Shown here: one piece after another, positions 5,843-38,721 of the stretch
Layout: every line of letters starts with the position of its first letter
Numbering within the stretch: position 1 is the first letter of the stretch
From: a virus
Direction: 5' to 3' (one strand)
IMG/VR virus record: IMGVR_UViG_3300049324_000014
Location: 1 to 38,721 of that record
Length of the DNA: 38,721 nt
The notes under the pieces: generated by a model
Databases searched by the model: none
What the model was told of the DNA's origin: nothing
Seen by the model: the letters and a program-made list of their open reading frames with translations, nothing else
Position numbers and translations under genes: made by a program

Positions 5843-5850
5843 GGAACACC

Positions 5851-6174
5851 ATGAAGCTCGTCGCCCTGCTGGCCGCTGGCGCGCTCACCGCTTGCGCCTC
5901 CATCATCCCGCCCACCGGGACGGTCGTGGTGGCGCAGGGCGATACCTCGCTGGACGCCGCCTACAACGTCGCCGCTCAGGCCTACCTCGCCGAGGAAGGC
6001 TCGATGCCGTCCGACCAGAAGGCGACGGTCAAGCTGCTCCTGACCAAGGCCTATCCGTATCTCGTCGCCGCCGACAAGGCCGAAGCCCTTGGCGACGCCA
6101 CGACCGTCACGGCCCAGGCCGGCGCGGCGATGGCGCTGATCAGCCAGGCCAAAGTCGCCCTCGGCACTCAATAG
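5851..6174 (+). CDS. Small lipoprotein in the lysis cassette
   Basis: 107 residues. ATG 5851 is preceded by GAGGA at good spacing; an ATG at 5839 overlaps the endolysin stop but has no ribosome site. The N-terminus is a typical lipoprotein signal, MKLVALLAAGALTAC, with lipobox LTAC and Cys15 as the predicted lipidated residue. The mature part is Ala-rich and helical. In a lysis cassette a lipoprotein could be an outer spanin (Rz1-like), although it is longer than classical Rz1 and not Pro-rich. It could also be a superinfection-exclusion or structural lipoprotein. Confidence 0.75.
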   Translation: MKLVALLAAGALTACASIIPPTGTVVVAQGDTSLDAAYNVAAQAYLAEEGSMPSDQKATVKLLLTKAYPYLVAADKAEALGDATTVTAQAGAAMALISQAKVALGTQ

Positions 6175-6451: not shown

Positions 6452-7074
6452 TGAAGTGGTGGCCCCTGACGCCGCCAACGACACCGCCCCCCTGGTGGAG
6501 CGCACGGCCACGCTCAACCGTCGAAACCCTCCTGGCCGACATTCTTCAAAGGCTCAACAACATGGACGACTCCGTAAACGACCTGACTCAAGCCGAAACT
6601 GATCTGGCGACCGCCGTCGCGGCCAGCACCGCGGCGACCAATGCGGCCACGCAAGAGATCGGCAACCTCACCGCCCAGATCACCGCCAACCCCGGCGACG
6701 CCGTTGCGGTAGAAGCTGCCGCGAAGGCCATCGAGGCCCAGGTGGCGACCATCAACCAGAACACCGCGGCGCTGGCCGGCAACGCGACCGGCAACACCAC
6801 CGGCGCCGAGATCGCTATCTCCCCGGAAAGCTTCGTCGCCACCGCCGGCTCCAACCTGAACGACGTGATCCAGGGCTCCGGCGGCGTCGGCGTGATCAGC
6901 TTCTCCGGCGTCGCGCAGAACGGCTTGACCGTCAATGACACCGGCAACTCGACTGCGGTCATCGGCGGCGTCGCCCCCTTTGCCGGCGGCAATGCGACGA
7001 TCGACGTCAGCTATGCCGACCAGGGCTCTCCACCCCAGGAAGGGACTGTCACTATCACCGTAGCCGGGGTCTGA
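6451..7074 (+). CDS. Coiled-coil plus beta-rich protein, fibre-like, unknown function
   Basis: 207 residues. It opens with an unusual Trp/Pro-rich stretch (MKWWPLTPPTTPPPWW), continues with an Ala/Thr-rich coiled coil (about 35-115) and ends in a Gly/Val/Thr-rich beta-type domain (about 125-205). This is the plan of small trimeric fibres or adhesion tips. An alternative start at ATG 6562 would remove the Trp/Pro part, but one-base overlap with the upstream stop favours 6451. A GC-rich hairpin follows the stop. Function is inferred only from architecture. Confidence 0.65.
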   Translation: MKWWPLTPPTTPPPWWSARPRSTVETLLADILQRLNNMDDSVNDLTQAETDLATAVAASTAATNAATQEIGNLTAQITANPGDAVAVEAAAKAIEAQVATINQNTAALAGNATGNTTGAEIAISPESFVATAGSNLNDVIQGSGGVGVISFSGVAQNGLTVNDTGNSTAVIGGVAPFAGGNATIDVSYADQGSPPQEGTVTITVAGV

Positions 7075-9031: not shown

Positions 9032-10180
9032 TTAGCGTTTGGGCCTTGGAAGCGTTTTCCAATCCGTTTTCCAATCGGCGTTCGCAAAGCGTTTCTGGAT
9101 GCCCTCAAGAACCGTCAGCTGGGCACCGGCCCGATCCGATTCCCGACCATAGACGGCGGCCATTGCCGTGCTGCGGTCGCCGATCGCCGCGGCCACCCTG
9201 GACTCGCTCTCGCCGGCGTCACGCGCCCATGATGCGACAGAGTGCCTGAGGCCATGGAAGGTCAGGCCGTCGCCGAGTTTCTTTTCCGCTTTCAGGACGC
9301 CGATACGCTTGAAGAACGAGGCCCGAAACCCGGACGCGGTCCATGGCGTACCGTAGGCCGTGGTCGCGATCTGGACAGCGTCGCCCCGAACAGCCATTGC
9401 CGCATCAAGGATCAGTTTGAACTGGCCGGTGACGGGCGCCATGCAGGCCTCGCCGTTTTTGCCCGCTATCCAGCGCACCACGGCTCCGTCGTAGGCGCGC
9501 CAGGTCGCGATCAGTGCGTCGCCCTGGCGCATGCCCGCGAAGAGGCCCAACGCGAAGGGCACCAGCAGCTGACGCGGCGCGCCGGCGGCGAAGATGTCGG
9601 CCTCGGCGACGGCCCACGCGCGGTTGGCGTCGGCTTGGCTGGTGGGCTTGCGGATCAGATCCACGTCGAGCGCGGGATTGTCCCGACAGTGGTCGCGTTT
9701 CTTGCCCCAGGCCATGGTGAGGCGAAGGACCTGCACGACATAGTTGGCGAAGCGACGACCTTTGGCGGCGTCGGCTTTGTCCCTCAGCGCGAACACGTCT
9801 GCGGGCCGCATCGTGCCCAGGTTCTTCTTCGTGGCGGCGTCGCCCAGCCAATCGCGCACCGCCTGATAGTCTGAGCGCGTCCTGGGCTTCAGGTTCCGCC
9901 ACTCTGGACTCTGGATATACTTGGCCCATAGCTCGGCGTACGAGCCCGTCAGAGCGTTCCTGGCGGCTTCCAGGGCCGTGAGGCGTCTATCCAGCGCGGC
10001 GACCTCTAGAAGGCCCTCTGCGGTCTCTGGATCGTGCTGGAGAGCCCGGCCGGTGCCGCGGTGATACCAGTAGACGCGGACGCGCCCGTCAGCCAGCTTG
10101 CGGCGGACAGGTTTAAGCCCTTTTGGCACGAGGAGGGTCCGTCTCGCCGGCAAGGTCCACCCAGCTGCTTCCTGCGTCAT
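9032..10180 (-). CDS. int: Tyrosine site-specific integrase
   Basis: 382 residues. The N-terminal part is a DNA-binding/core-binding region (YWYHRGTG near 38-44; SAM-like helices about 80-165). The catalytic domain shows Arg218 (GMRQGD), Lys241 (AGKNGE), His309/Arg312 (HGLRH) and nucleophile Tyr344 (AAVYGRE). The position usually held by the second His (LGHSS in many members) reads IGDRST, with Asp335. The C-terminus contains a DWKTDWKT duplication encoded by two tandem 11-bp repeats that may be integrase arm sites. It overlaps the upstream gene by 68 bp; a GTG at 10129 would shorten it to a more typical start. It integrates at tRNA-Phe via the adjacent attP. Confidence 0.95.
   Translation of the reverse strand: MTQEAAGWTLPARRTLLVPKGLKPVRRKLADGRVRVYWYHRGTGRALQHDPETAEGLLEVAALDRRLTALEAARNALTGSYAELWAKYIQSPEWRNLKPRTRSDYQAVRDWLGDAATKKNLGTMRPADVFALRDKADAAKGRRFANYVVQVLRLTMAWGKKRDHCRDNPALDVDLIRKPTSQADANRAWAVAEADIFAAGAPRQLLVPFALGLFAGMRQGDALIATWRAYDGAVVRWIAGKNGEACMAPVTGQFKLILDAAMAVRGDAVQIATTAYGTPWTASGFRASFFKRIGVLKAEKKLGDGLTFHGLRHSVASWARDAGESESRVAAAIGDRSTAMAAVYGRESDRAGAQLTVLEGIQKRFANADWKTDWKTLPRPKR
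9054..9076. repeat. Tandem GTTTTCCAATC pair (candidate integrase arm sites)
   Basis: Two 11-bp copies at 9054-9064 and 9066-9076 with a 12-bp period, inside the 3' end of int and 36 bp from the attP core. The third copy is on the other side of the core (8919-8929). The tandem pair explains the DWKTDWKT duplication near the integrase C-terminus. Confidence 0.5.
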
Positions 10181-12379: not shown

Positions 12380-12882
12380 TAGAAATCTACCTCGCCGAAT
12401 GGGTCCGGCGCCGGTGGCTCTGAGGCTCGCGCCGCGACGCGCTGTTCATCAAAAAAGGGCACAAGGGGTGCGTCCCAAGGCTCTCCTAGGACCGCGCTGA
12501 TCATAGCTCGCCAGCACATGACGGCCTGCCAAATCCGCAGAGTCGGAAAGCTGAAGGCGTCGTCGCAAAGTGGGTGCGCCCGCTCTAGACGCTCCATATT
12601 CATCTCGGCCACCATCGAGACGTTTTCGGCGCTGTCCCACATATTGAAAGAGGGCTCGCGCATCGCCGAGACTGCTGCGTGGGCAAGCGCCAGATAGGTG
12701 GGCAATACTTCGGCGGGCGGGTCGGCAAAGACCTCTCCGCCAAGCTCCAACGCAGCGTGCGCCCGCCAGATGGCCGACGCCACGCTCAGCGCCTCCATGG
12801 TGGGCTCGCTCTTTGGTGGCGCGCTTGCGTCCACACTCGGCGGCTGGGTTTCCAACGTGCGGCCCTCTGAATCTTCCTTCAC
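12379..12882 (-). CDS. Hypothetical helical protein
   Basis: 167 residues from GTG 12882, which overlaps the preceding stop (GTGA). A Pro/Ser-rich N-terminus of about 30 residues precedes a helical body with conserved-looking Trp and Met residues (AIWRAHAALELGG, FNMWDSAENVSMVAEMNM, LRIWQAVMCWRAMISAVLGE). No motif I can name. Confidence 0.7.
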   Translation of the reverse strand: MKEDSEGRTLETQPPSVDASAPPKSEPTMEALSVASAIWRAHAALELGGEVFADPPAEVLPTYLALAHAAVSAMREPSFNMWDSAENVSMVAEMNMERLERAHPLCDDAFSFPTLRIWQAVMCWRAMISAVLGEPWDAPLVPFFDEQRVAARASEPPAPDPFGEVDF

Positions 12883-13460
12883 TTTTCCATCTCCGATATC
12901 GCCCGAGCGGCAGCGCGATCTTCGTCGCCGAACAGCATGTCGATCTCGGCCCGCGCCACGCTGTAGGTTTCAAGCTGAAGCGTTCCAATCTCAGATGGCT
13001 CCAACCGCGCAAGGAACGGCGCGTGGACCGGGGCGATATGGGCAGCGATCCGGCGAGCCGCATGCTCGCGCGTGATCTCTGGAACCGCCATTCTAGCTAG
13101 CTGGGCGGATTGGGTGGCGAGGGGAGGTGCGGGTGCGGCAGCAAGCATGGCGGCGTACACGAACTCGGCCGGCGTAATGATGTGGCGTCCGTCTGGCGCT
13201 TTCTCGCAGCTGGCAAGATATTCTATCGCTCGCTCACGGCCAGCTTCGATCATTTCCTCGGTCGGCTCCTCGGGGACCAGGCGCCAGCCCTCCACTTTCA
13301 GCCCTGCGTCATGAGCCGGCCCGGTGGACAGGGCTTGCTCAAGGCGGGAGGCGAGGCGGTCGAATAGGTCCGCAACGCTGCCTGGAGTGCCGGGCATGAA
13401 GTCGGGGTGTGTCGCGGCCGCACGGGCCAATGCGATTAGTTTCTCGTCGGTGGGGGTCAT
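12879..13460 (-). CDS. Hypothetical phage protein (GWRLVPEEPTEEMIEAG type)
   Basis: 193 residues. The central block GWRLVPEEPTEEMIEAGRE followed by FVYAAMLAAAP is a recurring signature of phage early-region hypotheticals, in which a short beta hairpin precedes a helix. The C-terminal 70 residues are helical and charged. No catalytic residues evident. Coupled by overlap to both neighbours. Confidence 0.75.
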   Translation of the reverse strand: MTPTDEKLIALARAAATHPDFMPGTPGSVADLFDRLASRLEQALSTGPAHDAGLKVEGWRLVPEEPTEEMIEAGRERAIEYLASCEKAPDGRHIITPAEFVYAAMLAAAPAPPLATQSAQLARMAVPEITREHAARRIAAHIAPVHAPFLARLEPSEIGTLQLETYSVARAEIDMLFGDEDRAAARAISEMEK

Positions 13461-23288: not shown

Positions 23289-23621
23289 ATGCGCAAGTTC
23301 CTAGCCCTCACCACCGCTCTCGCCGCCATCGCAACAGCAGCCCATGCCGGCGGTCCCGCTCCGATGCACAGCATGCCCTCGCCACCGAGCGGCCCGGACC
23401 ACACCTTCACGACGACCAGCTCGCATGAGATCGGCCCAGCAATGGGCGGCCCCGCAACGGTGCAGAAGACCGTAACCACGACCGTGGGTTCGCACGGTCA
23501 GAAGATCAGTCAGGACACGACGACCACCCGCACCATGCCTACCAAGAACGGAACGATCACAGCCACGCACACGCGCGACTGCACCTACACGACCGGCTCG
23601 CGCATTCCGGTCTGCGAGTAA
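23289..23621 (+). CDS. Small exported protein
   Basis: 110 residues from ATG 23289, with AGGAG 8 bp upstream. A clear Sec signal peptide (MRKFLALTTALAAIATAAHA, cleavage after AHA) precedes a Thr/Ser/Gly-rich, probably beta-stranded mature part (TFTTTSSHEIG, KTVTTTVG, TTTTRTMPTKNGTITATHTR) with two Cys near the end. It is a secreted or periplasmic protein encoded between replication and packaging genes. Could be a moron-like gene acting on the host envelope. One-base overlap (TAATG) with the next gene. Confidence 0.72.
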   Translation: MRKFLALTTALAAIATAAHAGGPAPMHSMPSPPSGPDHTFTTTSSHEIGPAMGGPATVQKTVTTTVGSHGQKISQDTTTTRTMPTKNGTITATHTRDCTYTTGSRIPVCE

Positions 23622-23950: not shown

Positions 23951-24234
23951 GCCTGCAAACATCAGGCCGGAAGCAGGGCAAGTTTGCCAAGGGCCAGTCG
24001 GGCAATCCGAAGGGGCGCGCGGCCGGAAAGGCGAACAAAGGCACCGTAGCCGCCCGCGAAGCCTTCCAGATGGCCTTCGATCAGCTTGGTGGGCCTAAGC
24101 ACTTGGCAAAGTGGGCCGGCGACAACGAGACCGAGTTCTACAAGCTATTCGCCCGCCTCATCCCAGTTGACGTCAACGCCAAGGGCGACTTCACCGGCAA
24201 GTTTGTGATCGAATGGAAACCCGACGCATCGTAA
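23947..24234 (+). CDS. terS: Small terminase-like protein (DUF5681 N-terminus)
   Basis: 95 residues from TTG 23947, which has GGAGG 5 bp upstream and overlaps the preceding stop (TTGA). The KFAKGQSGNPKGRAAGK motif (about 11-27) is the DUF5681 signature found in phage proteins next to the large terminase; the rest is helical (TVAAREAFQMAFDQLGGPKH). Position and motif indicate the small terminase subunit that recognises the packaging site. It overlaps terL by 22 bp. Confidence 0.72.
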   Translation: MSLQTSGRKQGKFAKGQSGNPKGRAAGKANKGTVAAREAFQMAFDQLGGPKHLAKWAGDNETEFYKLFARLIPVDVNAKGDFTGKFVIEWKPDAS

Positions 24235-25532
24235 TCGACTACGCGCCGCGCCGGGTGTTCATGCCGTTTCACAACCGCACCCAGCGCTTCGCCATTGGCG
24301 TGGCCCACCGGCGGGCCGGCAAGACCGTGGGCACGATCAACGACCTGATCAAGCGCACGATCACCAACCCGAGGGACAATCCGCGGGCGGCCTACATCGC
24401 GCCGCTGTTCAACCAGGCCAAGGACGTGGCGTGGGCCTATCTCAAGCGCTACGCCGATCCGCTTCTGGCCAAGGCCCCAAACGAGAGCGAGCTGTACGTC
24501 GAGCTGCTGAATGGCGGTCGCATCCGCCTCTATGGCGCCGACAACCCCGACCGGCTCCGCGGCATCTACCTCGATGATGTGGTGCTGGACGAGTACGCCG
24601 ACATGCACCCAGCGGTGTGGGGCGGTGTGATCCGGCCGCTGCTCTCGGACAGGCAGGGCGGCGCGTCGTTCATCGGTACGCCAAAGGGCAGGAACGCTTT
24701 CTACGACCTGTTCGCCAGGGCGGAGGGTGATCCCGACTGGTTCCAATTCATGCTCAGGGCCTCAGAGACCGGGATCATCCAGCAATCCGAGTTGGACGCC
24801 GCCCGCAAGGACATGACGCCGGAGCAGTACGAGCAGGAGTTCGAGTGCAGCTTCGACGCGGCGATCATGGGCGCGTACTTCGGCAAGGAGGTTGCCGAGG
24901 CCGAGCGGGAAGGGCGCATCACCGACGTGCCCTATGAGCCTGATCTGCCGCTCTACACCGCATGGGACCTGGGCGTTGGGGACTCGACCGCCATCTGGTT
25001 CTGGCAGGCCGTCCGCGGCGAGATCAGGGTCATCGACTACTACGAGAACAACGGCCAGCAGGTCAGCCATTACATTCAGGAGCTGAACTCCAGGCCCTAC
25101 GTCTACGAGGCCGACTACGTCCCCCATGACGCCAGGGTGCGCGAGTTCACCGGCGACGACCGGACCAGGATAGAGAGCATGGTGGCCAAGGGCCGAAACC
25201 CAAGGCTGGTCCCCAACCACAAGATCATGGACGGCATCAACGCCGCTCGGGTGCTGTTCGGCCGGATGGTGTTCGACGCAGCGAAGTGCAGGGACGGGCT
25301 GGAGGCGCTGCGCCAGTACCGCGCCGACTACGACGACAAGACCCGCGCCTTCCGAGACGCGCCCAAGCACGACTGGACAAGCCATGCGGCCGATGCGTTC
25401 CGCTACCTGGCCATGGCCTGGCGGGAATTGGCCCCGGAACCGCCGCCGAAGCCGGAAATGCGCGGGCTGGCCGAGATGACCTTCGACGAGATCAACAAGC
25501 TGCACGACCGCCGGCGCGAGGATGCCTGGTAG
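24213..25532 (+). CDS. terL: Large terminase (ATPase/nuclease)
   Basis: 439 residues. The ATPase part has Walker A HRRAGKTV (32-39), Walker B VVLDEY (123-128) and the coupling motif GTPKG (155-159). The RNase H-like nuclease shows Asp252 (AWDLG), Asp306 (YVPHDA) and Asp394 (SHAADAFRY). It powers DNA packaging into the prohead and cuts the concatemer. The length is normal for short-form phage terminases. It overlaps the small subunit gene and ends 3 bp before late promoter copy 2. Confidence 0.96.
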   Translation: METRRIVIDYAPRRVFMPFHNRTQRFAIGVAHRRAGKTVGTINDLIKRTITNPRDNPRAAYIAPLFNQAKDVAWAYLKRYADPLLAKAPNESELYVELLNGGRIRLYGADNPDRLRGIYLDDVVLDEYADMHPAVWGGVIRPLLSDRQGGASFIGTPKGRNAFYDLFARAEGDPDWFQFMLRASETGIIQQSELDAARKDMTPEQYEQEFECSFDAAIMGAYFGKEVAEAEREGRITDVPYEPDLPLYTAWDLGVGDSTAIWFWQAVRGEIRVIDYYENNGQQVSHYIQELNSRPYVYEADYVPHDARVREFTGDDRTRIESMVAKGRNPRLVPNHKIMDGINAARVLFGRMVFDAAKCRDGLEALRQYRADYDDKTRAFRDAPKHDWTSHAADAFRYLAMAWRELAPEPPPKPEMRGLAEMTFDEINKLHDRRREDAW

Positions 25533-25581: not shown

Positions 25582-27816
25582 ATGGACCCAGCCGCTCAGG
25601 TCGATGAGCCCGCCGACTTCGGGACCGATGACGCCGCGACCGTCTCGCGGTGGATCAGCGAACTTGACCTGTCCGAGAAGGACCAGCGGCCCTGGGTCGA
25701 TCGCTGCCGCAACATCGTCAAGCGCTACAAGGGCAGCCGCCAGTCCGGTGGTGAGGACACCAAGCGACGCAGCTTCGAACTGCTCTGGGCCAACACCCAG
25801 ACCCTGGCGCCGGCGGTCTATGCCAGGACCCCGACCGCCGTCGTCTCCCGCCGCTGGAAGGATGCCGACCAGACCGCCAGGACGGCTTCGGAGGTCATAG
25901 AGCGGGGCCTGAACTTCCAGCTCGACGCCTGCGACTTCGCCGACGCGATGGTCAACCTCCGCGACGACTTTCTGCTGGTCGGGAGGGGTCAGGCCTGGGT
26001 CCGCTACGTCCCCCACATGGCCAAGGTCAAGGGCAAGCCCGCGGAACCACCAGACGGTGAGATCGGCGAGCAGACCGACGACTATGACGAGGTCATCTGG
26101 GAGGAGTGCATCCCCGACCACGTCCACTGGGAGGACTTCTTCACCAACCCGGCTAGGACCTGGGCTGAGGTCCGCTGGGTCGCCCGCCGTTCGTTCCTGA
26201 CCAGGGATGAGCTGAAGGACCGCTTCGGCGAGGAGAAGGGCAAGGAATGCCCGCTCGACTGGAAGGCCAATTCGGAGACCGGCGACAAGGACAAGGACAC
26301 CCAGTTCGCCAAGGCCGCGGTCTATGAGATCTGGGACAAGACCAGCCAGAAAGTGTTCTGGGTCTGCAAGGCCTACACCGAATGCTGCCTCGACAAGCGC
26401 GACGACCCGCTGGAACTGAAGGACTTCTTCCCATGTCCCCGGCCGCTGCTGGGCTCGACGGGGCCGGACAGCATCATCCCCACGCCGGATTACGTCTACT
26501 ACGAGAGCCAGGCGCGCGAGATTGATGAACTGACCCGCCGGATCGGGCTGCTGACCGATGCGCTGAAGGTCAGAGGCTTCTACGCGGCCAAGGACGGTCA
26601 GAAGATGACCGACCTGCTGGCGTCGGAGAGCGGAACCCTCATTCCCCTGGATAGCTGGGCGGCGTTTGCCGATGCCGGGGGCGTCAAGGGCCTGATCGAG
26701 TGGTTCCCGGTGGATATGGTCGCCGAGGTGCTGAAGGGCTGCATCGAGACGCGCCAGCAGATGCTGCAGGACGTGTTCCAGATCACCGGCATCGCCGACA
26801 TCATGCGTGGCGACACCGACCCGGACGAAACCGCCGCCGCCCAGAAGATCAAGGCGACTTGGGGCTCGAGCCGGGTCCGCGACAAGCAGAAGGAGCTGGC
26901 CCGCTTTGTCCGCGATCTGCTGCGGATCATGGGCGAGGTGATCGCCACCAAGTTCAGCCCCGACACGCTGGCGAAGATGACCGGCGTCAAGCTGTTCCAG
27001 AACCCAGAGGAAAAGCAGCAGGTTCAGCAGGAACTACAGATGCAGGCTCAGGCCGCTCAGCATCAGGCGCAGATGGCCCAGCAGCCCCCGCAGCCAGGGA
27101 TGGGCGCGCCGGCCCCACAGCCGGCCCCTAAGCCGTTCCAGCCGCCCCCGCAGACGGTGCGCATGCTGGGCGACCCGACCTGGGCCGAGGTCGAGGCGAT
27201 GCTGCGCGACAACGCCATGCGGACCTTCCGCATCGAGATCGAAACCGATTCCACCATCGAGCCGAACGACGCCGAGGAAAAACAGTCCCGCGTCGAGTTC
27301 GTGGAAGCGGTGGCAACGTACCTGGAGAAGACCGGGCCGATCATCCAACTGGCCCCCGAAATGCTCCCGGTAATGGTCGAGGGGCTGAAGTTCCTGGTCA
27401 GGGGATTCCGCGTCGGCCGCGAGATGGAGGACGTCATCGAGCAGGCTCTGGATGCGCTGCAGGCCCGCGCCTCGGCGGCTCAGGGCCAGCCCCAGCCGCA
27501 CGATCCAGCCGCGATGATGAAGGCCCAGGCCGACCAGACGAACGCTCAGGCCAACACGCTGAAGGCCCACGCCGATCTGCAAGACGCTCAGACCGAAGCC
27601 TTCCGCGCCAAGGCCGAGGCGCAGCTTGGAACCCAGCAAATCCACGTCGAGGACCAGCGCGCCGCCAACGACACCCAAGCCGAGGTCGGGATGCATGGCG
27701 CCGACATCAAGGCCGATCTGCTCAAGGCCCAGATGTCCAGCGTCGAGAAAATGTACGGCCACGACATCAGGCAACAACACCTCATTCCACCAGCACCAGG
27801 GGCTCAAGGCCAATGA
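25582..27816 (+). CDS. Portal protein, P22-like type
   Basis: 744 residues, the size of P22-type portals. An N-terminal helical wing (LSEKDQRPWVDRCRNIVKRY; FELLWANTQTLAPAVYARTP; a WVRYVPHM segment) precedes a stem/crown region with QQMLQDVFQITGIADIMRG (about 392-410). A Gln/Pro-rich linker (about 475-530) and a long C-terminal coiled coil (about 640-735) follow, which would form the barrel. It makes the dodecameric ring through which DNA is packaged and ejected. Position directly after terL supports it. No ribosome site precedes the ATG, consistent with leaderless translation from promoter copy 2. Confidence 0.88.
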   Translation: MDPAAQVDEPADFGTDDAATVSRWISELDLSEKDQRPWVDRCRNIVKRYKGSRQSGGEDTKRRSFELLWANTQTLAPAVYARTPTAVVSRRWKDADQTARTASEVIERGLNFQLDACDFADAMVNLRDDFLLVGRGQAWVRYVPHMAKVKGKPAEPPDGEIGEQTDDYDEVIWEECIPDHVHWEDFFTNPARTWAEVRWVARRSFLTRDELKDRFGEEKGKECPLDWKANSETGDKDKDTQFAKAAVYEIWDKTSQKVFWVCKAYTECCLDKRDDPLELKDFFPCPRPLLGSTGPDSIIPTPDYVYYESQAREIDELTRRIGLLTDALKVRGFYAAKDGQKMTDLLASESGTLIPLDSWAAFADAGGVKGLIEWFPVDMVAEVLKGCIETRQQMLQDVFQITGIADIMRGDTDPDETAAAQKIKATWGSSRVRDKQKELARFVRDLLRIMGEVIATKFSPDTLAKMTGVKLFQNPEEKQQVQQELQMQAQAAQHQAQMAQQPPQPGMGAPAPQPAPKPFQPPPQTVRMLGDPTWAEVEAMLRDNAMRTFRIEIETDSTIEPNDAEEKQSRVEFVEAVATYLEKTGPIIQLAPEMLPVMVEGLKFLVRGFRVGREMEDVIEQALDALQARASAAQGQPQPHDPAAMMKAQADQTNAQANTLKAHADLQDAQTEAFRAKAEAQLGTQQIHVEDQRAANDTQAEVGMHGADIKADLLKAQMSSVEKMYGHDIRQQHLIPPAPGAQGQ

Positions 27817-28253
27817 AGCGCTTCTTCCTCCTCCTCGCCGCGTTCCTGGCTCTTGGCAGCCCTGCCATGGCCGACCCGTCCGCCGTCTTCCCCGCGTTGC
27901 CCGCCGGCGCGGTTCAGGAGACTGCCCAGGCCACGGCGGCCGCCTCGGTCAATACCGCGACCCTCGCCGCCGCGGTTGGCCACAACACCTACCTGGTCGG
28001 CTTCCAGATCACCGGCGGGGGCGCATCGTCCGCCGCGGTCGTGGCCTGCACCATCACCGGCCTGCAGGGTGGAACCATCACCATCGACGTGGCTATTCCC
28101 GGGACCGCGACCAGCCAGGTCGGCCCGGTCAATCCGCCGCTGAGCCTGCCGCTGATCTCCAACGGCCAGAACCAAGCCGTCGCCGTGTCCTGCCCGTCGT
28201 TCGGAACCGGCAACACCACGGCCGCGGTTTCCGCTGAAGGCTACACCTTCTGA
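27813..28253 (+). CDS. Exported protein with Sec signal peptide (1 of 3 in the head operon)
   Basis: 146 residues. The N-terminus MKRFFLLLAAFLALGSPAMA is a textbook signal peptide with AMA cleavage. The mature part is Ala/Gly/Val/Thr-rich, probably an all-beta immunoglobulin-like domain (YLVGFQITGGGASSAAVVAC, ITGLQGGTITIDV), with two cysteines that could pair in the periplasm. It is coupled to the portal gene by an ATGA overlap and to the next gene by one base. A signal peptide in a head-gene operon is unusual; possibilities are a surface-displayed or envelope protein, or a virion protein with an N-terminal hydrophobic anchor. Confidence 0.75.
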   Translation: MKRFFLLLAAFLALGSPAMADPSAVFPALPAGAVQETAQATAAASVNTATLAAAVGHNTYLVGFQITGGGASSAAVVACTITGLQGGTITIDVAIPGTATSQVGPVNPPLSLPLISNGQNQAVAVSCPSFGTGNTTAAVSAEGYTF

Positions 28254-29173
28254 TGCGCCGGATTCTCGCCCCCATCCTGGCGCTGGCGCTCGCTTGGGCG
28301 CCGATCGCTCAGGCCGCCAATCTGACGCCGGATCAGCTGACCCAGGCGATCACGGCGAACAACACCGACCTGATGGTCATCTACCCGACCGGCGGCCCGC
28401 TGAAGTCGATCCAGTGGACCGTGCTCAAGACCCTGATGGTGGCGGCGGTTGGCGGGGTCTATCTGCAGATCAACAACAACCTGAACGACCTGCAGTCCCC
28501 GTCATCGGCCAGGACCAACCTGGGCCTGGGAACAGCAGCCCTTGCGAACACCGGAACGTCGGGCGGGACCGTCCCGCTGCTCAGTGGCGTCAACACCTGG
28601 AGCGGTGCGCAGTCCTGGGTCGCCGGCTCAACGACCGTTGCGCCCTTCCTGTTCCAGTCCGGCTCGCTGCTCACGGCTCCAGCGGCTGGTGCGGTCGAAT
28701 GGGATGGCTCGAACGAGTACGTCACCAAGACCTCAGGCCCGACCCGCGAGACGCTGGGCTATGCCGACGGGTCGAACTTCAGCGTCAGCGCGGTCTCGAC
28801 GGCGCTCTCCGGCCAGACGTCCGGCACACTGGCCGCCGGCAACGATAGCCGCTTCGTCGGCCCGACGCAGAACGGCCAATGCTCCTATGTCCCCGTGCTC
28901 TCGGACGGCGGCAAGCAGCTCTATTGCAACACCGCCGGCACGCACACGCTGACGCTGCCGGCCAATTCGTCGGTGGCCTTTCAGGTCGGGACCAAGATCG
29001 ACGTGGTCAACGACTGCTCGGCCGGCGTCATGACCATCGCGATCACCACCGACACGCTGGTGTTTTTCACCGCCGGCACGACAGGTTCTCGCACCCTGGT
29101 CCCATGCGGCGAGGCGACGCTGACCAAGGTCAACACGACCCGCTGGATCATCGTCGGGGTTGGCGTCAACTGA
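28253..29173 (+). CDS. Exported tail-fibre-like protein (2 of 3)
   Basis: 306 residues. Signal peptide MRRILAPILALALAWAPIAQ with cleavage after AQA. The middle carries the motif NLNDLQSPSSARTNLGLGTA (about 78-97), the classic repeat of phage tail fibres and spikes. Beta-rich segments follow, and the C-terminus resembles a fibre tip domain (TLTLPANSSVAFQVGTKIDV, then FFTAGTTGSRTLVPCGEATL). The combination of a Sec signal with fibre-type repeats is odd. It may be an adhesin or receptor-masking protein placed on the cell surface, or a virion fibre. Confidence 0.72.
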   Translation: MRRILAPILALALAWAPIAQAANLTPDQLTQAITANNTDLMVIYPTGGPLKSIQWTVLKTLMVAAVGGVYLQINNNLNDLQSPSSARTNLGLGTAALANTGTSGGTVPLLSGVNTWSGAQSWVAGSTTVAPFLFQSGSLLTAPAAGAVEWDGSNEYVTKTSGPTRETLGYADGSNFSVSAVSTALSGQTSGTLAAGNDSRFVGPTQNGQCSYVPVLSDGGKQLYCNTAGTHTLTLPANSSVAFQVGTKIDVVNDCSAGVMTIAITTDTLVFFTAGTTGSRTLVPCGEATLTKVNTTRWIIVGVGVN

Positions 29174-29886
29174 TGCGCCGCTTCCTCGCCTTCCTATGCG
29201 CCGCGCTCCTGCTGGCCTCGCCCGCCGGCGCGGTTCCCAGCGCCTGGACGGTCTACAGCTCCGGCCCGCTCATCACGCAGCTCGGGACCGCCACCACCAG
29301 CGGCATCGCAACGACGGCGGTGCTGACAACGATCGCCGACGCGCCGGCGCACTCGACGATCATCGTCTTTGCCGCCTCCGAACCGAACGCCTTCGCTACG
29401 ACCTGGATGACGGACTCCAACGGCGACACGTTCACCCTGAAGAAATTCACGGTCTTGTCGTCAGCTAACGGGGGGGCTGCCTACGTCGTCAACACGGCCT
29501 CCGACCTTCCGGCAGGCTCGACGATCACGCTGACGCTTGGGTCATCGACCCACGGCTCCCTGGTCGCCATTGACGCCAAGAGCCTCAACGGCGGCGCTGA
29601 TGTGACCGGCGCGCAAACGACGGGCACGGCCTCCTCGACGTCGGTGCCAACCGGGGCGCTCGCCCAGCCCGTCGAGCTTGTTTGCGGCGCAACCTTCTTC
29701 CTGGGCACCAATCCGGGGACGTGGACCGAGGCGGTGGGCTTTACCTCCGAAACCCAACAGACGGGCGGCCCCGACATCTTCCCGGCCTGCCAGGCGGTGT
29801 TTTCGACGGCGGGCTCAACATACGCGCCAAGCTGGGCGAATAGCGTGCTCTTCGGGGCCAACGTCTGGTCGTGGAAGTCGCCATGA
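29173..29886 (+). CDS. Exported beta-rich protein (3 of 3)
   Basis: 237 residues. Signal peptide MRRFLAFLCAALLLASPAGA. The mature region is Thr/Ser/Ala/Gly-rich and predicted beta-stranded (TTAVLTTIADAPAHSTIIVF; DTFTLKKFTV; TASDLPAGSTITLTLGSS), with the look of a jelly-roll or IPT/TIG-like domain. Its start overlaps the previous stop by one base and its stop overlaps the next start, so all three exported proteins are made as a block. No named family. Confidence 0.72.
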   Translation: MRRFLAFLCAALLLASPAGAVPSAWTVYSSGPLITQLGTATTSGIATTAVLTTIADAPAHSTIIVFAASEPNAFATTWMTDSNGDTFTLKKFTVLSSANGGAAYVVNTASDLPAGSTITLTLGSSTHGSLVAIDAKSLNGGADVTGAQTTGTASSTSVPTGALAQPVELVCGATFFLGTNPGTWTEAVGFTSETQQTGGPDIFPACQAVFSTAGSTYAPSWANSVLFGANVWSWKSP

Positions 29887-30215
29887 CCGACGTCGCCCCC
29901 GTTCAGGCCCAATCGGCGCAGCTGGCTCCTTCTCAGCAGCTGGCCCAAGCCGTCACCACCGCCGGCGCGGCCCTGGTCGCCAGCGACCTCACCGCCCTGC
30001 AGGCCGCTCAACAGGTCCTGGCCAACGCCAACAGCACGGCCGACGACGTCACCGCCGCCCTGGGTACCCTCCCCGGAGCCGTAGGCGGGGCGGCCCGCGC
30101 CACGCGCGCCCAGGCGCTGCTCAGTGCTTGGCAGGCCGGACAGCAACGCCTCCTGGCCATCGCGCTCGCCGAGATGAACGGCATGATCGCGGCCATGGAC
30201 GGAGCGACCAGCTGA
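29883..30215 (+). CDS. Small Ala/Gln-rich helical protein
   Basis: 110 residues from ATG 29883 (ATGA overlap; GGAAG upstream). Almost entirely Ala/Gln/Leu-rich helix with no aromatic core, resembling assembly chaperones or virion minor proteins. It lies two genes before the scaffold. No family recognised. Confidence 0.68.
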   Translation: MTDVAPVQAQSAQLAPSQQLAQAVTTAGAALVASDLTALQAAQQVLANANSTADDVTAALGTLPGAVGGAARATRAQALLSAWQAGQQRLLAIALAEMNGMIAAMDGATS

Positions 30216-30556
30216 TGACCCAGCTTCGCTATTGCCGCGTCTGTCACGACCTGCACCCGCTGGAGCAGCCTTGGCCCTTGGCCTGCGTCGCCCATTGGGG
30301 AACGGCCTACGTCGCGCGTTCGGATCTTCCATGCCCGTCGATCCGCGCCGATGGCATGGACGCGATCCAGTCGATGGCGGACGGCCAGATGTATGACGGC
30401 CGCTCAGCCTATTACGACAGCGTCCGTCGCGCCGGATGCGAGATCGTCGGCGACGACCGGGCCGGCTTCGGCAAGGCCCCGACGATCGACAGTGTCATCC
30501 CCGGCAACATCGAAGCCGACATCAAGCGGACTATTCAGGAGCTAAGCAATGGCTGA
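30215..30556 (+). CDS. Small zinc-binding phage head-region protein
   Basis: 113 residues from ATG 30215 (TGATG overlap). Cys7, Cys10, Cys24 and His27 form a zinc ribbon at the N-terminus. The segment PSIRADGMDAIQSMADGQMYDG, then SAYYDSVRRAGCEIVGDDRA is a conserved motif of proteins encoded just before the scaffold in many alphaproteobacterial podophages. It overlaps the scaffold start by 8 bp. A role in capsid assembly is plausible from position only. Confidence 0.72.
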   Translation: MTQLRYCRVCHDLHPLEQPWPLACVAHWGTAYVARSDLPCPSIRADGMDAIQSMADGQMYDGRSAYYDSVRRAGCEIVGDDRAGFGKAPTIDSVIPGNIEADIKRTIQELSNG

Positions 30557-31622
30557 CGATTTCGAAGCCGAACAGCCTGAACCAGAAGTCTCCATCGGCG
30601 ATGACCTGCGCGATGCGTTCGCCGCTGACGGCGACGCTCAGGCGGGCATTGTCCCCGCCGCACCCGCTATCCCATCCGAGCCCGCCAAGGCGGCTGAGCC
30701 CGGCGCTGACGGCCGTGTGCGCGCCCCTGACGGAAAGTTTGCCAAGGCCCCCGAACAGGGGCAAAGCAAAGCAGAGCCTGTTTCGCCTCAGGCCAGCGGA
30801 ATCGAACCTCCCAAAGAGGCCATCGCCCCGCCGGCCGCCTGGAGCGCCGCAGCCAAGGCCGACTTCGCCTCTCTCCCCCCGCACATCCAACAGGAAGTGA
30901 TGCGGCGAGAGAAGGACGTAACGGACGGCCTGGCCCAGCGGCAACAGAAGGACGAAAGGTTCAACCGCCTGGACTCGCTCCTGGCTCCTCGTCGCGAACG
31001 CTTTCAGCTCGCGGGCCTCGATGAATTTCAAGCGGTCCAGGCGCTCTTCGCCGCCCAGGACCTCTTGGATCGCGACGCCCCCAGCGGTCTTCGCTACCTG
31101 GCCAAGCAGTACGGCGTGAACCTCGCCAGTCTGGCTCAAGGAGCCCCAGCGCAAGCGCAACAAGCGCCCATGCCGCCGGTGGTCCAACAGCTGATGAACG
31201 AAGTTCAATCCCTGAAAAGCGCTCACAACCAGCAACAGCAGTCCGCCGACCGAGCCGCCCAAGACCAAGCTTCCCAAATGGTCCAAGCTTTTAGTGCCGA
31301 CCCGAAGAATCTCTACTTCGAGAACGTGCGGAAAGATATGGCCGATCTGGTCAATTCAGGTCAGGCCAAGACCATTCAGGAAGCTTACGACAGAGCGGTT
31401 TGGGCCAATCCAGAGACCCGCCCCCTGATGCTTCGGCAGCAGGAGGAGCAACGGGAGACGGAGCGGAGGGCCGCCGCCACCGCCAGGTCGAACGCCGCGC
31501 GTCATGCGTCAGGGTCAATCACCGGCTCGCCCACCCCCGGCTCGTCGCCGGCGAGGGTGAACAGCCCCACCGCAACCGTGGCCGACGATCTCCGAGACAC
31601 CATCCGAGAACTCGCCGGCTGA
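30549..31622 (+). CDS. Scaffolding protein
   Basis: 357 residues. An acidic, disordered N-terminus contains RAPDGKFAKAPEQ. The core begins PPAAWSAAAKADFASLPPHI and continues QQEVMRREKDVTDG, then LDEFQAVQALFAAQDLLDRD and LRYLAKQYGVNL, a pattern I know from scaffolds preceding P22-like coat genes. Gln-rich coiled coil and a C-terminal VADDLRDTIRELAG follow. It would template procapsid assembly and then exit. The interval 31020-31420 is less GC-rich than its surroundings. Placement directly before the capsid gene supports the call. Confidence 0.82.
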   Translation: MADDFEAEQPEPEVSIGDDLRDAFAADGDAQAGIVPAAPAIPSEPAKAAEPGADGRVRAPDGKFAKAPEQGQSKAEPVSPQASGIEPPKEAIAPPAAWSAAAKADFASLPPHIQQEVMRREKDVTDGLAQRQQKDERFNRLDSLLAPRRERFQLAGLDEFQAVQALFAAQDLLDRDAPSGLRYLAKQYGVNLASLAQGAPAQAQQAPMPPVVQQLMNEVQSLKSAHNQQQQSADRAAQDQASQMVQAFSADPKNLYFENVRKDMADLVNSGQAKTIQEAYDRAVWANPETRPLMLRQQEEQRETERRAAATARSNAARHASGSITGSPTPGSSPARVNSPTATVADDLRDTIRELAG

Positions 31623-31641: not shown

Positions 31642-32613
31642 ATGGCTTCGCCCAACCTGAACGAAATCGTCACCACCACGCTGCGCAAGCGTAGTGGAAA
31701 GCTGGCGGACAACGTGACCAACAACAACGCCCTTCTCGCGCGCATGAAGAAGAAGGGCTCCATCGAAACCGTCTCCGGCGGTCGCACCATCGTGCAAGAG
31801 CTGGAGTACGCCCAGAACGGGACCTACCAGCGCTACGCCGGCTATCAGGTCCTCAACATCCAGCCCTCGGACGTGTTCACCGCGGCCGAGTTCGACTGGA
31901 AGCAGATCGCCGTCGCGGTGACTTGGAACGGCCTGGAGATCGACGTCCAGAACACCGGCGAGGAACAGCTCATCGACCTGCTCTCGGCGCGGATCAAGAA
32001 CGCCGAGAAGACCCTCGCCAACAACATGTCCTACGACATGTATTCCAACGGTACGGCGGACGGCGGCCTGCAGATCGGCGGCCTTCAACTGCTCGTCGCG
32101 GACGCTCCCACTACGGGCGTGGTCGGCGGCATCGACCGGGCGCAATGGCAGTTCTGGCGCAACCAGTCGTTCTCCGCCGTGACCAACGGCGGCGGCGCGG
32201 CCTCGGCGCTGAATATCCAGGGCTACATGAACCAGCTCTGGCTCAACACCAAGCGCCAGAACGACGTCATCGACCTGATCATCGCCGACAACGCCTACTT
32301 CAACTTCTACTGGTCTTCGCTGCAGTCGATTCAGCGCATCACCAAGGAAGACGAAGGCGAAGCCGGCTATCAGCGCCTCAAATACATGGGCGCCGACGTG
32401 GTGGCGGACGGTGCGATCGGCGCGGCTTGCCCCGCCAATCACATGTACTTCCTGAACACCGACTACATCAAATACCGGCCGTCCTCGAAGCGGAACATGG
32501 TTCCGCTGGAAACGGTCTCTTCCATCAACCAAGACGCCTCCGTGCGGCTGATCGTCTGGGCGGGCAACGTGACCCTGTCCAACGCTGAGCTGCAGGGCGT
32601 GCTGATCGCCTAA
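31642..32613 (+). CDS. Major capsid protein
   Basis: 323 residues with AAGGA before the ATG. The N-terminal region LNEIVTTTLRKRSGKLADNV, then NNALLARMKKKGSIETVSGG and NGTYQRYAGYQVL is characteristic of a phage coat family with an HK97-type fold, as are LTW-type and LINLLSARIKNAEKTLAN-like segments and the C-terminal block MYFLNTDYIKYRPSSKRNMV. It forms the icosahedral shell. Codon usage is the most strongly biased of the window, as expected for the most expressed gene. Confidence 0.92.
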   Translation: MASPNLNEIVTTTLRKRSGKLADNVTNNNALLARMKKKGSIETVSGGRTIVQELEYAQNGTYQRYAGYQVLNIQPSDVFTAAEFDWKQIAVAVTWNGLEIDVQNTGEEQLIDLLSARIKNAEKTLANNMSYDMYSNGTADGGLQIGGLQLLVADAPTTGVVGGIDRAQWQFWRNQSFSAVTNGGGAASALNIQGYMNQLWLNTKRQNDVIDLIIADNAYFNFYWSSLQSIQRITKEDEGEAGYQRLKYMGADVVADGAIGAACPANHMYFLNTDYIKYRPSSKRNMVPLETVSSINQDASVRLIVWAGNVTLSNAELQGVLIA

Positions 32614-35210: not shown

Positions 35211-36872
35211 ATGGTCAGAAGGGCGCTAAGGCCGAACCCGCAGAAAAAGCAGGTCTCGATGGCGCGGACCATCCCGGCCCCGATCGGCGGCTGGGATGCG
35301 CAAAGCCCGCTGGCCGCGATGCCTCCACAGAACGCCGTGATCCTCGACAACTGGATACCTCGCTCCGGCTATGTCGAGGTGCGGCGCGGCTTTGTCCAGC
35401 AGCAGACCGGCATGCCCGGCCCCGTCGAGAGCCTGATGGCCTATCGCGGCGGTCCCACAGGCGACAACCTGTTCGCGGCCTCGTCGGGCAACCTCTACGA
35501 CGTGACGACCGTGGGCGCGCCGCTCGGGGCTCCGGTCTATAGCGGCGCGGCCTCGAACCGCTGGAACACCACTTCGTTCTCCAATCCGGCTGGGACTTGG
35601 CTGATCGCGGTCAATGGCGTCGATACGCCGATCGGCTACAACGCCGGGGCCTGGGCGACCCTGCCGCCAATCAGCGGCTCTTCCGGCGCGATCACGCTCG
35701 ACCCGACGAAGCTATTCTGCGTCGCGCCCCACCAGGGGCGGCTGCTGTTCGGCGAGATCGACACCCTGCATGTGTGGTTCCCCGCGGCCGCGGCGGTCGG
35801 TGGCGTCATGCAGCTGCTCGACCTGGGCTCGGTGTTCTCGAAGGGCGGTAGGCTGGTCGGCATCGCCACATGGTCGTGGCAGTTCGGCGTGACGGCGGAC
35901 GAGTACGCCGTGTTCATGACCGACCAAGGCCAGATCGCGCTCTTTTCCGGCATCGACCCGTCGAACGCCGCCGACTGGACGCTGACCGGCGTCTATGACT
36001 TCGGCAAGCCCGTTGGACCGAAAGCCCTGATCCGCTACGGCGCGGACCTGGTCATCATCACCACCGATGGCATCATCCCGCTCAGCCAGGCGCTGAAGCT
36101 CGACCGGACCCAGGACAACACCGTCGCCCTGACCGCGATGATCAAGGACGCCTTCTCCGGCGCGGTGCGGGCCTACAAGGATAACTACGGCTGGCAGGGC
36201 CTGCTCTACGCCGGCGACACCACCTCGAACGACCCCGACGCTGACGGCGGATCGCTCGGCATCTTCAACATTCCGATCACCACCTTGGGGACCTCGGAGC
36301 AGTACGTCATCAACCTCTCGACCGGGGCTTGGTGCAGGTTCCTCGGCCTGAACGCCTTCTGCTGGGAGGTGGCGAACGACGCGGTCTATTTCGGATCGAC
36401 CGCGGGCGTCTATCAATGGGACGTCGGCGCCAGCGACAACGGTCAGACGATCACCGCCGAGGTCCTGGGGGCCTTCTCCAGCTATGGCGCGGTGACGACC
36501 AAGCAGTTCACCATGGCCCGGCCGCTGCTCAGGACCTCCGGGCTTGTCCAGCCGGCCATCGACATCAATACCGACTTCGACCAGACGCCGCCGGCGGCCA
36601 TGCCGAGCGTGGTGGATGCCGGATCGGTGGTCAGCGAGATCCGCTACGATTGGACCGGCGTCTCGGGCGTCGGCTACATGGGCGCGCCGCACATGGTCGT
36701 CTCGTTGAGGAGCGACCCCACCCAAGCCGATCTAGCCGTGGATAGCGGGCTGATCGACGTCCTGGGCGTGGACTCGACCGACAGCCTCGCCGTCCAATCT
36801 GGCCTGCCCTACGACGTGCCATGCCAGCTGATCAGCTTCGATGTGATGTGGCAGCCAGGTGGTCCCCTATGA
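35211..36872 (+). CDS. Large tail hub/nozzle protein
   Basis: 553 residues. After a basic leader (MVRRALRPNPQKKQVS) the sequence IPAPIGGWDAQSPLAAMPPQ, then NAVILDNWIPRSGYVEVRRG is a conserved N-terminus of large tail proteins in this podophage group. The body is beta-propeller-like with repeated GD/W segments (FAASSGNLYDVTT; WSWQFGVTADEYAVFMTDQG; FETDG-like turns). It probably forms the hub or nozzle below the adaptor (role comparable to P22 gp10 or T7 gp12). An internal ATG at 35259 with AGG upstream is an alternative start; the leaderless ATG is favoured by the promoter geometry. Confidence 0.75.
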   Translation: MVRRALRPNPQKKQVSMARTIPAPIGGWDAQSPLAAMPPQNAVILDNWIPRSGYVEVRRGFVQQQTGMPGPVESLMAYRGGPTGDNLFAASSGNLYDVTTVGAPLGAPVYSGAASNRWNTTSFSNPAGTWLIAVNGVDTPIGYNAGAWATLPPISGSSGAITLDPTKLFCVAPHQGRLLFGEIDTLHVWFPAAAAVGGVMQLLDLGSVFSKGGRLVGIATWSWQFGVTADEYAVFMTDQGQIALFSGIDPSNAADWTLTGVYDFGKPVGPKALIRYGADLVIITTDGIIPLSQALKLDRTQDNTVALTAMIKDAFSGAVRAYKDNYGWQGLLYAGDTTSNDPDADGGSLGIFNIPITTLGTSEQYVINLSTGAWCRFLGLNAFCWEVANDAVYFGSTAGVYQWDVGASDNGQTITAEVLGAFSSYGAVTTKQFTMARPLLRTSGLVQPAIDINTDFDQTPPAAMPSVVDAGSVVSEIRYDWTGVSGVGYMGAPHMVVSLRSDPTQADLAVDSGLIDVLGVDSTDSLAVQSGLPYDVPCQLISFDVMWQPGGPL

Positions 36873-37132
36873 ACCAGAACGACATTCGCAACATGGCCGA
36901 TCACGTCGCCCAGGCGGTCCACCGGGCCTCGATAGGCGACGACCCGGAGCTGTGGAGCGACCTCACCGACGAGGAGCAGGACGACTTCCGCCTGATCGCG
37001 CTCGCGGCGATGGCGGCCCACGACGCTTGGCTGACGGTCGCCGGCTACGCCATCGTGCAGATCCCGAAGAAAAAGGCAGTGGCGACCCCTCGCCGCGCGC
37101 TGCTCGGGCCAGACGGAAAGCCGCTGCAATGA
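36869..37132 (+). CDS. Small tail-region protein
   Basis: 87 residues from ATG 36869 (ATGA overlap). Helical and acidic N-terminal half (NDIRNMADHVAQAVHRAS; DLTDEEQDDFRLIALAAMAA), then a basic end (IPKKKAVATPRRALLG). No domain recognised. It bridges the hub gene and the GNAT-like gene by overlaps on both sides and may be an assembly chaperone. Confidence 0.68.
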   Translation: MNQNDIRNMADHVAQAVHRASIGDDPELWSDLTDEEQDDFRLIALAAMAAHDAWLTVAGYAIVQIPKKKAVATPRRALLGPDGKPLQ

Positions 37133-37632
37133 GGCTGATCTGGGACAGGCCAAGCGACGTGGCGGCCTGGGTCGCCAGCCAAATCCCGCAGATGTCGGGC
37201 GGCCATGACTTCGGCGCCTGCCAGGCGGTCGGCGTGATCGGCGAGGATGGCCGGCTCCTGGGGGGCATCGTGTTTCACAACTGGCAGGCCGGGTTCCGCA
37301 ACATCGAGGTCAGCTTCGCGTCGAGCACGTCGCGCTGGCTGACCCGCAACCTGCTCCGGCAAATCCTGGCCTATCCGTTCGACCAGCTCCAGTGTCAGCG
37401 GATCACCGCCCTGACCCCGAAGAAGAACGCCCAGGCCCGCAAGTTCCTCGACGGCTTCGGTTTCAAGCGCGAGGGCGTCGTGCGTCGGGGATTCGGCAAC
37501 GATGACATGATCGTCTCCGGGCTGCTCGCCCGAGAGTGGCGCGCCTCGAAGTGGATGGCCACAAGGCGATCCCTTGGCGAGCCTGAGCCGGCTTTACAGT
37601 GCGAGCCTAGGACGGTCAGCCTCAACGCCTAA
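37129..37632 (+). CDS. GNAT-family acetyltransferase-like virion-region protein
   Basis: 167 residues from ATG 37129 (ATGA overlap). It follows the GNAT fold: beta strands GACQAVGVIGEDGRLLGGIV, FRNIEVSFASSTSRW, the helix TRNLLRQILAYPFDQLQ, then RITALTPKKNAQARKFLDGF and GFKREGVVRRGF, as in RimJ/RimL-type N-acetyltransferases. A canonical acetyl-CoA P-loop (Q/RxxGxG/A) is not obvious. Genes of this type recur between tail and ejection-protein genes in podophages. It could modify a virion or host protein, or be a structural derivative. Confidence 0.78.
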   Translation: MRLIWDRPSDVAAWVASQIPQMSGGHDFGACQAVGVIGEDGRLLGGIVFHNWQAGFRNIEVSFASSTSRWLTRNLLRQILAYPFDQLQCQRITALTPKKNAQARKFLDGFGFKREGVVRRGFGNDDMIVSGLLAREWRASKWMATRRSLGEPEPALQCEPRTVSLNA

Positions 37633-37660: not shown

Positions 37661-38721
37661 ATGAAGGGGAACCCCTTGGGGAAGCCAGCGCCGACGCCGC
37701 CAACGCCAGTCGATCCTACCGCGGTCGCGGGCGCTCAGACCACATCGAACCTCGCCACGGCCCAAGCCCAGGCGGCGCTGAACAACACCAACCAGTCCAC
37801 GCCCTACGGCTCGGTGGCCTACACCCAGCCCGGCGGCCCAGACACGGCGTTCACCGAAACCACCACGCTCAGCCCGCAGGAGCAGGCGATCTTCAACGCC
37901 AGCACCGCCAACCAGGCCGGGGCGCTGAACCTCGCCACCGGCGACCTGGGCAACGTCGCCAGCGCCCTTGCCACGCCCGTCAACGCGCCGGGGCTGCAGG
38001 GCAGCTATAGCGCCGGCGGCCCGGTCGCCACGGGCTATGGGACCGGAGGCGCGATCCAAGGACAGATCGGGACGCAGGACGTCAACCAGAGCGTCCAGAG
38101 CGCCGAGCAGGCCAACTTCGCCCAGCAGATGCAGCTTATGCAGCCGCAGATGCAGCAGGCCCAGGAGAGCAACCAGGCCCAACTGGTCGCCCAGGGCCTG
38201 AACCCGAACGACGCCGCCTACGGCAACGAGATGACCCAGTTCAACAACGGTCAGGCGGTCCAGTACGACCAGGCGGCCGACAACGCCGTTGCGGCCGGGA
38301 ACGCCGAGCAGAACACCTTGTTCGGCCAGCAGGCGACGCAGGGCCAGTTCGCCAACGCGGCGCAGTCGCAGGCGAACACCCAAAACCAGGCCCAGGCGGG
38401 TTTCCAGAACACCGCTCAAGCCCAGACCAACAGCGAGAACGCCGCGGCGATGGCGGCTGCCAACCAGGCGGCCAACCAGAGCTTTCAAAACCAGGTCACG
38501 GCCCAGCAACTGCCGATCAACGAGTTCACGGCGCTGGAGTCGAACAGCCAGGTTCAGGCGCCATCCAGCACGCCGGCTCAGACCGCCGTCGCGCCCACCG
38601 ATGTCCTCGGGGCCTACAGCCTGCAAGCGCAGCAGCAGCAGGCGCAGTACGCCGCCCAGCAGGCGCAGTACAATTCCGGGCTTAGCGGGCTGTTCAGCCT
38701 CGGCTCAGCGGCCTTGACCGG
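37661..38721 (+). CDS. Virion/ejection protein, N-terminal part (continues at 1-170)
   Basis: The gene begins at ATG 37661 and stays open to the window end; joined to bases 1-170 after removing the 127-bp overlap it encodes 367 residues. A Pro/Thr-rich start (MKGNPLGKPAPTPPTPVDPT) is followed by a long Ala/Gln/Asn-rich helical region with heptad-like repeats (FAQQMQLMQPQMQQAQESNQ; QGQFANAAQSQANTQNQAQA). No enzymatic motif. The composition resembles podophage internal core or ejection proteins that form the trans-envelope channel. No clear ribosome site precedes the ATG. Confidence 0.8.
   Translation, partial: MKGNPLGKPAPTPPTPVDPTAVAGAQTTSNLATAQAQAALNNTNQSTPYGSVAYTQPGGPDTAFTETTTLSPQEQAIFNASTANQAGALNLATGDLGNVASALATPVNAPGLQGSYSAGGPVATGYGTGGAIQGQIGTQDVNQSVQSAEQANFAQQMQLMQPQMQQAQESNQAQLVAQGLNPNDAAYGNEMTQFNNGQAVQYDQAADNAVAAGNAEQNTLFGQQATQGQFANAAQSQANTQNQAQAGFQNTAQAQTNSENAAAMAAANQAANQSFQNQVTAQQLPINEFTALESNSQVQAPSSTPAQTAVAPTDVLGAYSLQAQQQQAQYAAQQAQYNSGLSGLFSLGSAALT
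38595..38721. repeat. Terminal direct repeat, copy 2
   Basis: Identical to bases 1-127. It should be collapsed to one copy to obtain the circular genome of about 38,594 bp. Confidence 0.9.

Follow-up and report, generated by a model that had tools for sequence, protein, structure and literature searches.

The window considered here is the whole stretch of viral DNA that was analysed (38,721 nucleotides, the full IMG/VR record IMGVR_UViG_3300049324_000014). Its two ends carry an exact 127-bp direct terminal repeat (1-127 and 38595-38721), from which it follows that the record is probably a complete genome; the record entry itself does not class the ends as repeated. As both an integrase and an Erf-like recombinase are encoded, the genome is assigned to a temperate tailed phage. 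The late operon is arranged in the order TerL, portal, P1, P2, P3, a 110-aa gene, a small CxxC protein, a scaffold-like gene and the major head protein (Table 1). An earlier sequence-only reading had placed three consecutive, overlapping, signal-bearing genes between portal and scaffold in the head gene operon. This was borne out: the three reading frames lie at the stated positions, overlap and have N-termini with signal scores of 5.15-5.65, with TerL and portal upstream and the scaffold-like gene and major head protein downstream. The overlaps amount to 4 bases for portal/P1 (ATGA), 1 for P1/P2, 1 for P2/P3 and 4 for P3/110-aa gene, so that the start codons of P1-P3 are hardly in doubt. P2 sits between portal and major head protein in this run of overlapping genes and is thereby a member of the virion gene operon. 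A sigma-70-like promoter of the block's own was not found in the region, the consensus used being unsuited to alphaproteobacteria, whose promoters differ.

Table 1. Positions of the late-operon features and of the integrase gene in the window
Feature	Position	Strand	Remarks
Integrase	9032-10180	minus	PHROG match, E 7e-23
TerL (terminase large subunit)	24213-25532		flank of the block
Portal gene	25582..27816	+	upstream neighbour; phrog_12082, E 3.9e-212
P1, 146 aa	27813..28253	+	predicted signal peptide, beta-sandwich; Cys79, Cys127
P1 signal peptide MKRFFLLLAAFLALGSPAMA	27813..27872	+	predicted; heuristic score 5.65
P1 mature part	27873-28250	+	
P2, 306 aa	28253..29173	+	predicted signal peptide, tail-fibre-like; Cys210, 225, 255, 285
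P2 signal peptide MRRILAPILALALAWAPIAQA	28253..28315	+	predicted; heuristic score 5.15
P2 C-terminal connector-like domain, about residues 203-306	28859..29170	+	pLDDT above 90, fold matches
P3, 237 aa	29173..29886	+	predicted signal peptide, beta-rich, two mature cysteines, no recognised homologue
P3 signal peptide MRRFLAFLCAALLLASPAGA	29173..29232	+	predicted; heuristic score 5.61
110-aa gene without signal	29883..30215	+	closes the block downstream; overlaps P3 by 4 bases
Scaffold-like gene	30549-31622		no family match; assigned from position and composition
Major head protein	31642..32613	+	phrog_9953, E 2e-113

Three other genes of the window were recorded along the way. A second small signal-bearing protein of 110 aa with 2 Cys (MRKFLALTTALAAIATAAHA/GGPAPM) is encoded at 23289-23621 (+), two genes upstream of the terminase, and gave a weak peptidase-family match only. 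Directly 3' of the endolysin gene, at 5839-6174 (+), lies a small lipoprotein-like protein with an LTAC lipobox, possibly an outer spanin. Downstream of a tail gene, at 36859-37632 (+), an acyl-CoA N-acyltransferase (phrog_4470) is found; the relatives OP596615, MN988542 and MW202489 have acetyltransferases at the matching place.

The export signals were scored with a self-written heuristic that rewards a positive n-region, an 8-residue hydrophobic core and small residues at -3 and -1. The null was formed by the internal in-frame Met of phage genes: 1/3,012 scored at least 4.6 and 0/3,012 at least 5.1, a level that P1, P2 and P3 all reach. The signals look real, as the earlier reading had held. 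Cleavage is predicted at MKRFFLLLAAFLALGSPAMA/D in P1 (AMA/D), at MRRILAPILALALAWAPIAQA/A in P2 (AQA/A) and at MRRFLAFLCAALLLASPAGA/V in P3 (AGA/V). Overall, P1-P3 bear strong Sec/SPase-I-type signals and their export is well supported by the sequence, while their destination we infer. A superinfection-exclusion lipoprotein of the Llp/Cor type was rejected as an identity, since none of the three sites has a lipobox cysteine at +1. P3 scored 10.6 bits against the Pfam family LPAM_1 (cut-off 20).

In the closest relative (L010, portal 66% identical), the slot is occupied by a single signal-bearing homologue of P2, which starts inside the portal stop codon. Of the block, this relative thus keeps P2, whereas the trio as such was not retained. 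The signal of the L010 homologue has diverged from that of P2 (score 4.49), but the mature part opens with the same ANLTPD, and 67/101 positions are identical over mature residues 1-101 (66%). The predicted cleavage boundary of P2 coincides with the start of this conserved region. A diverged signal followed by a conserved mature start is the pattern expected for the evolution of cleaved signals. In the portal-related isolates L002-L005 and L009, the heuristic detected no called gene with such an N-terminus.

Outside the portal relatives, a podophage-like contig that did not emerge as related in the portal search (L018) encodes a signal-bearing fibre with 75% identity to P2 over the fibre's last 100 residues. 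After this fibre comes a glycine-rich protein, also signal-bearing, which opens with VPSAWT, like P3, and resembles a signal-free protein 3' of the fibre in ctNMl277 (with a z of 6.6 relative to shuffles). A search with the L010 homologue returned 24 loci, most of which carry fibre-like genes with a signal, often two to five in a row. Such genes follow the terminase in L090, the major head protein in L100, L101 and L109 (from the P1-family scan) and virion structural genes in L072, L083 and L084; they lie beside baseplate and tail genes in L082 and L091 and precede a tape-measure gene in L069. A scan of genome contigs gave one match, unrelated, from Streptomyces. The signal-bearing fibre-like protein encoded by L083 (5926-7941) has 15 cysteines and a pectate-lyase-like domain; it may be a tailspike-like enzyme that is exported. 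That of L077 (4336-8163) is 1,275 aa long and includes a peptidase S74 chaperone domain close to the C-terminus.

In L019 and L033 the signal directly precedes a complete fibre, with a mature start at .../GTPTANYALSKPTVSADADTWGTQIN, and the signal-free counterparts in two other phages begin within about 3 residues of the start codon. It therefore appears that signals have been placed before ordinary fibres more than once.

Cultured phages also possess a signal-bearing fibre-like protein, namely BcepC6B (gp19, 'tail fiber protein') and Xanthomonas phage PBR31 (orf35, 'putative structural protein'). Both proteins resemble the P1-P3 system in bearing a signal; they have a cysteine pair in the N-terminal half, and their C-terminal module is shared with the L010 homologue. 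They differ from P1-P3 in that a single gene is present, lying between tailspike and holin and outside the head operon. The annotations and the available passages of the literature make no remark on the export of either protein. That the block is an isolated curiosity is accordingly not supported, as signal-bearing fibre-like genes turn up again in unrelated phages, and also in two that have been cultured; such proteins appear to be widespread among tailed phages.

A further sign came from the cysteines. Paired cysteines offer little gain to cytoplasmic proteins but are of benefit in the periplasm. Among the fibre-like genes in viral loci, at least two cysteines were counted in 33/35 signal-bearing genes (94%) and in 25% of the 152 signal-free ones (p ~1e-12); genes are non-independent in these statistics, the gene caller is crude and the fibre-like class is set by composition. 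When the loci retrieved by Cys-containing patterns of the L010 query were left out, the values became 10/11 (91%) and 18% of 127 (p 2e-7); one of the six P2-scan patterns also contained a cysteine. The cysteine count of the signal-bearing genes is even in 26/34 cases and odd in 8. In the last module of P2, the two signal-bearing proteins have 4 Cys each, the signal-free ones 0-2 throughout. In the P1 family, at least two cysteines occur in 4/5 signal-bearing and 1/11 signal-free members (p 0.013), at positions that differ between members and with the status of the mutually alike L101 and L109 less clear. Some members deviate: PBR31 and L119 are signal-bearing without extra cysteines in the given module, and one contig (L103) has two P1-type copies (6477-6983 and 12856-13236), one with two cysteines and no signal, which is a counterexample to the rule. 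The enrichment in signal-bearing versions indicates periplasmic folding, and as such it supports export independently of the signal scores.

These results also bear on the reading in which the N-terminal hydrophobic stretches are no export signals and P1-P3 are cytoplasmic virion components. An internal ATG at residue 19 of P1 could yield a signal-free form, and all homologues are found in virion loci. However, only P1 has an ATG this near the end of the signal, no internal Met of the null attains the scores of P1-P3, and the signal-free counterparts of the L019 and L033 fibres start at about the point where the mature part does. As the paired cysteines are, moreover, found mainly in signal-bearing versions, this reading is very improbable. 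P2 in particular, with its Sec-type N-terminus and paired cysteines, does not answer to the description of a cytoplasmic protein lacking an export signal.

The mature part of P1 belongs to a family of small beta-sandwich proteins with a PSFGAGN motif. The family was found via a motif scan only, tblastn and the PHROGs giving no match for P1, and was also sought by an iterative HMM search over local ORFs. Its alignment comprises 15 sequences with 32-46% identity, which share the conserved core motif and the predicted beta-sandwich fold. Signal-free members exist, such as the L104 copy adjoining the terminase. The AlphaFold model of P1 (pLDDT 85) superposes on the capsid cement proteins of Pam1 and KHP40 (Z 6.7 and 6.5, rmsd 3.2 and 2.9, over ~100 residues); these Z values are below 8 and of a size that common jelly rolls also give, so that the match is not decisive. 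P1 differs from these cement proteins by its signal peptide and its pair of cysteines.

P2 holds the tail-fibre repeat NLNDLQSPSSARTNLGLG, and its residues 84-130 match a PHROG tail fibre family (E 1.9e-6), in agreement with the earlier description of fibre-like, beta-rich mature parts. The structure prediction that had been proposed for these parts succeeded for the beta-sandwich of P1 and for the C-terminal module of P2, a connector fold modelled with pLDDT above 90; it failed for the middle of P2, which as a monomer remained at pLDDT 30-50. The C-terminal fold (residues 181-283 of the mature model) is that of virion fibre connectors: its matches span Z 8.9-11.6, a T4 baseplate chain included, with the Pa223 capsid spike at 11.6, the KP1 baseplate at 10.9, CBA120 TSP4 at 9.6 and T4 gp9 at 9.1. 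The last module is present in about 50 signal-free phage proteins, and where the P1 and P2 modules have homologues without a signal, these belong to ordinary virion fibres or to small structural proteins. P2 thus resembles connectors of the T4 gp9/gp10 type in having the gp9/gp10/TSP4/capsid-spike fold, and the fibres of KP34-like podophages (KpV74, PPWS1, PhiM1) share a C-terminal module with its L010 homologue. These fibres and connectors have no signal and few cysteines, whereas P2 has a Sec-type signal and four cysteines. A relationship of the P2 N-terminus to the signal-free L118 fibre was dropped, as the comparison was not significant.

For P3, no relatives were found in viral contigs, cultured phages or local ORFs. 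A kinship with the beta-rich signal-bearing proteins of L082, L084 and L090 was discarded because the pairwise likeness did not rise above shuffles. P3 is a possible beta-rich adhesin.

From the late, coupled expression with the head genes and the virion-type modules, P1-P3 are tentatively read as a decoration kit: proteins folded in the periplasm that would reach the virions, or receptors on debris, at lysis. In this kit, P1 would be a small jelly roll of cement-like type, P2 a fibre with a connector domain at its end, and P3 a beta-rich protein that is possibly an adhesin. These proteins would be made late alongside the head proteins and exported by Sec. We infer that the signals are then cleaved and that the proteins fold, form disulfides and wait in the periplasm; at lysis, they would come together with the released virions and bind to these as accessory fibres or decoration, with P3 perhaps serving as adhesin. 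They may also coat receptors on debris. The P22 tailspikes can join finished heads in vitro, which makes attachment after lysis plausible. P1-P3 that are envelope-bound or freely released would agree with the same data.

Alternatively, the exported fibres may act on the host envelope, in the periplasm or at the outer membrane, either in lysogens or at a late stage of infection. There they could block or mask receptors, causing superinfection exclusion or preventing progeny from adsorbing to the dying cell and its debris. The strong predicted signals, the fibre and possible adhesin modules and the integrase of a temperate phage are all compatible with such a role. So are BcepC6B and PBR31: each encodes a separate ordinary tailspike directly before the exported-fibre gene, so that the exported fibre is not needed there as the sole fibre. 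Receptor masking on the dying cell or debris agrees with the export evidence nearly as well as decoration at lysis does. Against an envelope role, the genes are translationally coupled to portal inside the head operon, no lipobox or barrel for placement on the outer surface was noticed, and the connector and cement-like folds suggest that the proteins bind other components of the virion. The missing sigma-70-like promoter points the same way, but weakly given the differing alphaproteobacterial promoters. Action on the envelope is accordingly considered somewhat unlikely.

P1-P3 could also be adhesins of lysogenic conversion, i.e. prophage-encoded fibres on the cell surface that aid attachment of the host, comparable to the MAT fibres of Bdellovibrio. 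The MAT fibres (Bd2133, Bd3182) are secreted, trimeric cellular proteins with a signal peptide followed by phage-fibre-like, beta-rich parts (PMC10769870). In these features, and in their export by the cell, they resemble P1-P3, and the MAT family appears to be the nearest known thing that works alike. The phage is temperate, and the P1 model, the only one compared, matches Bd2133 weakly (Z 5.4), a value that lies in the background range. The MAT fibres are, however, encoded by bacterial chromosomal genes and serve predation, whereas P1-P3 lie in the virion operon of a complete phage genome. Since a late virion operon position is seen both here and in unrelated phages, and no known surface anchor is present, conversion adhesins are improbable.

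The earlier statement that no described system of this kind is known was supported within the literature searched: in open-access papers, with few subscription journals covered, no account was found of tailed phages whose fibre-like proteins are exported by Sec. The papers on phiCbK, a rumen phage, JC1 and Circe mention signal peptides for other proteins or in general only.

The usual assumption is that both the making and the mounting of tail fibres take place in the cytoplasm. The recurrence of exported fibre-like proteins in unrelated and cultured phages suggests an undescribed way of making adhesive proteins outside it. Returning to the decoration kit, it is conceivable, though doubtful, that certain tailed phages complete their virions outside the cytoplasm: Sec-exported, periplasm-oxidised fibre, connector and cement-like proteins would be added to assembled particles at lysis, giving disulfide-stabilised accessory adhesins and an assembly in two compartments. 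The exported class predicts which of the annotated 'tail fibre' genes of cultured phages are exported, and BcepC6B or PBR31 allow a direct test of it. It would also affect how receptor-binding proteins are predicted and which compartment is chosen for their expression. If true, phages would use the periplasm to fold adhesins, which finish the virions after lysis or act on receptors.
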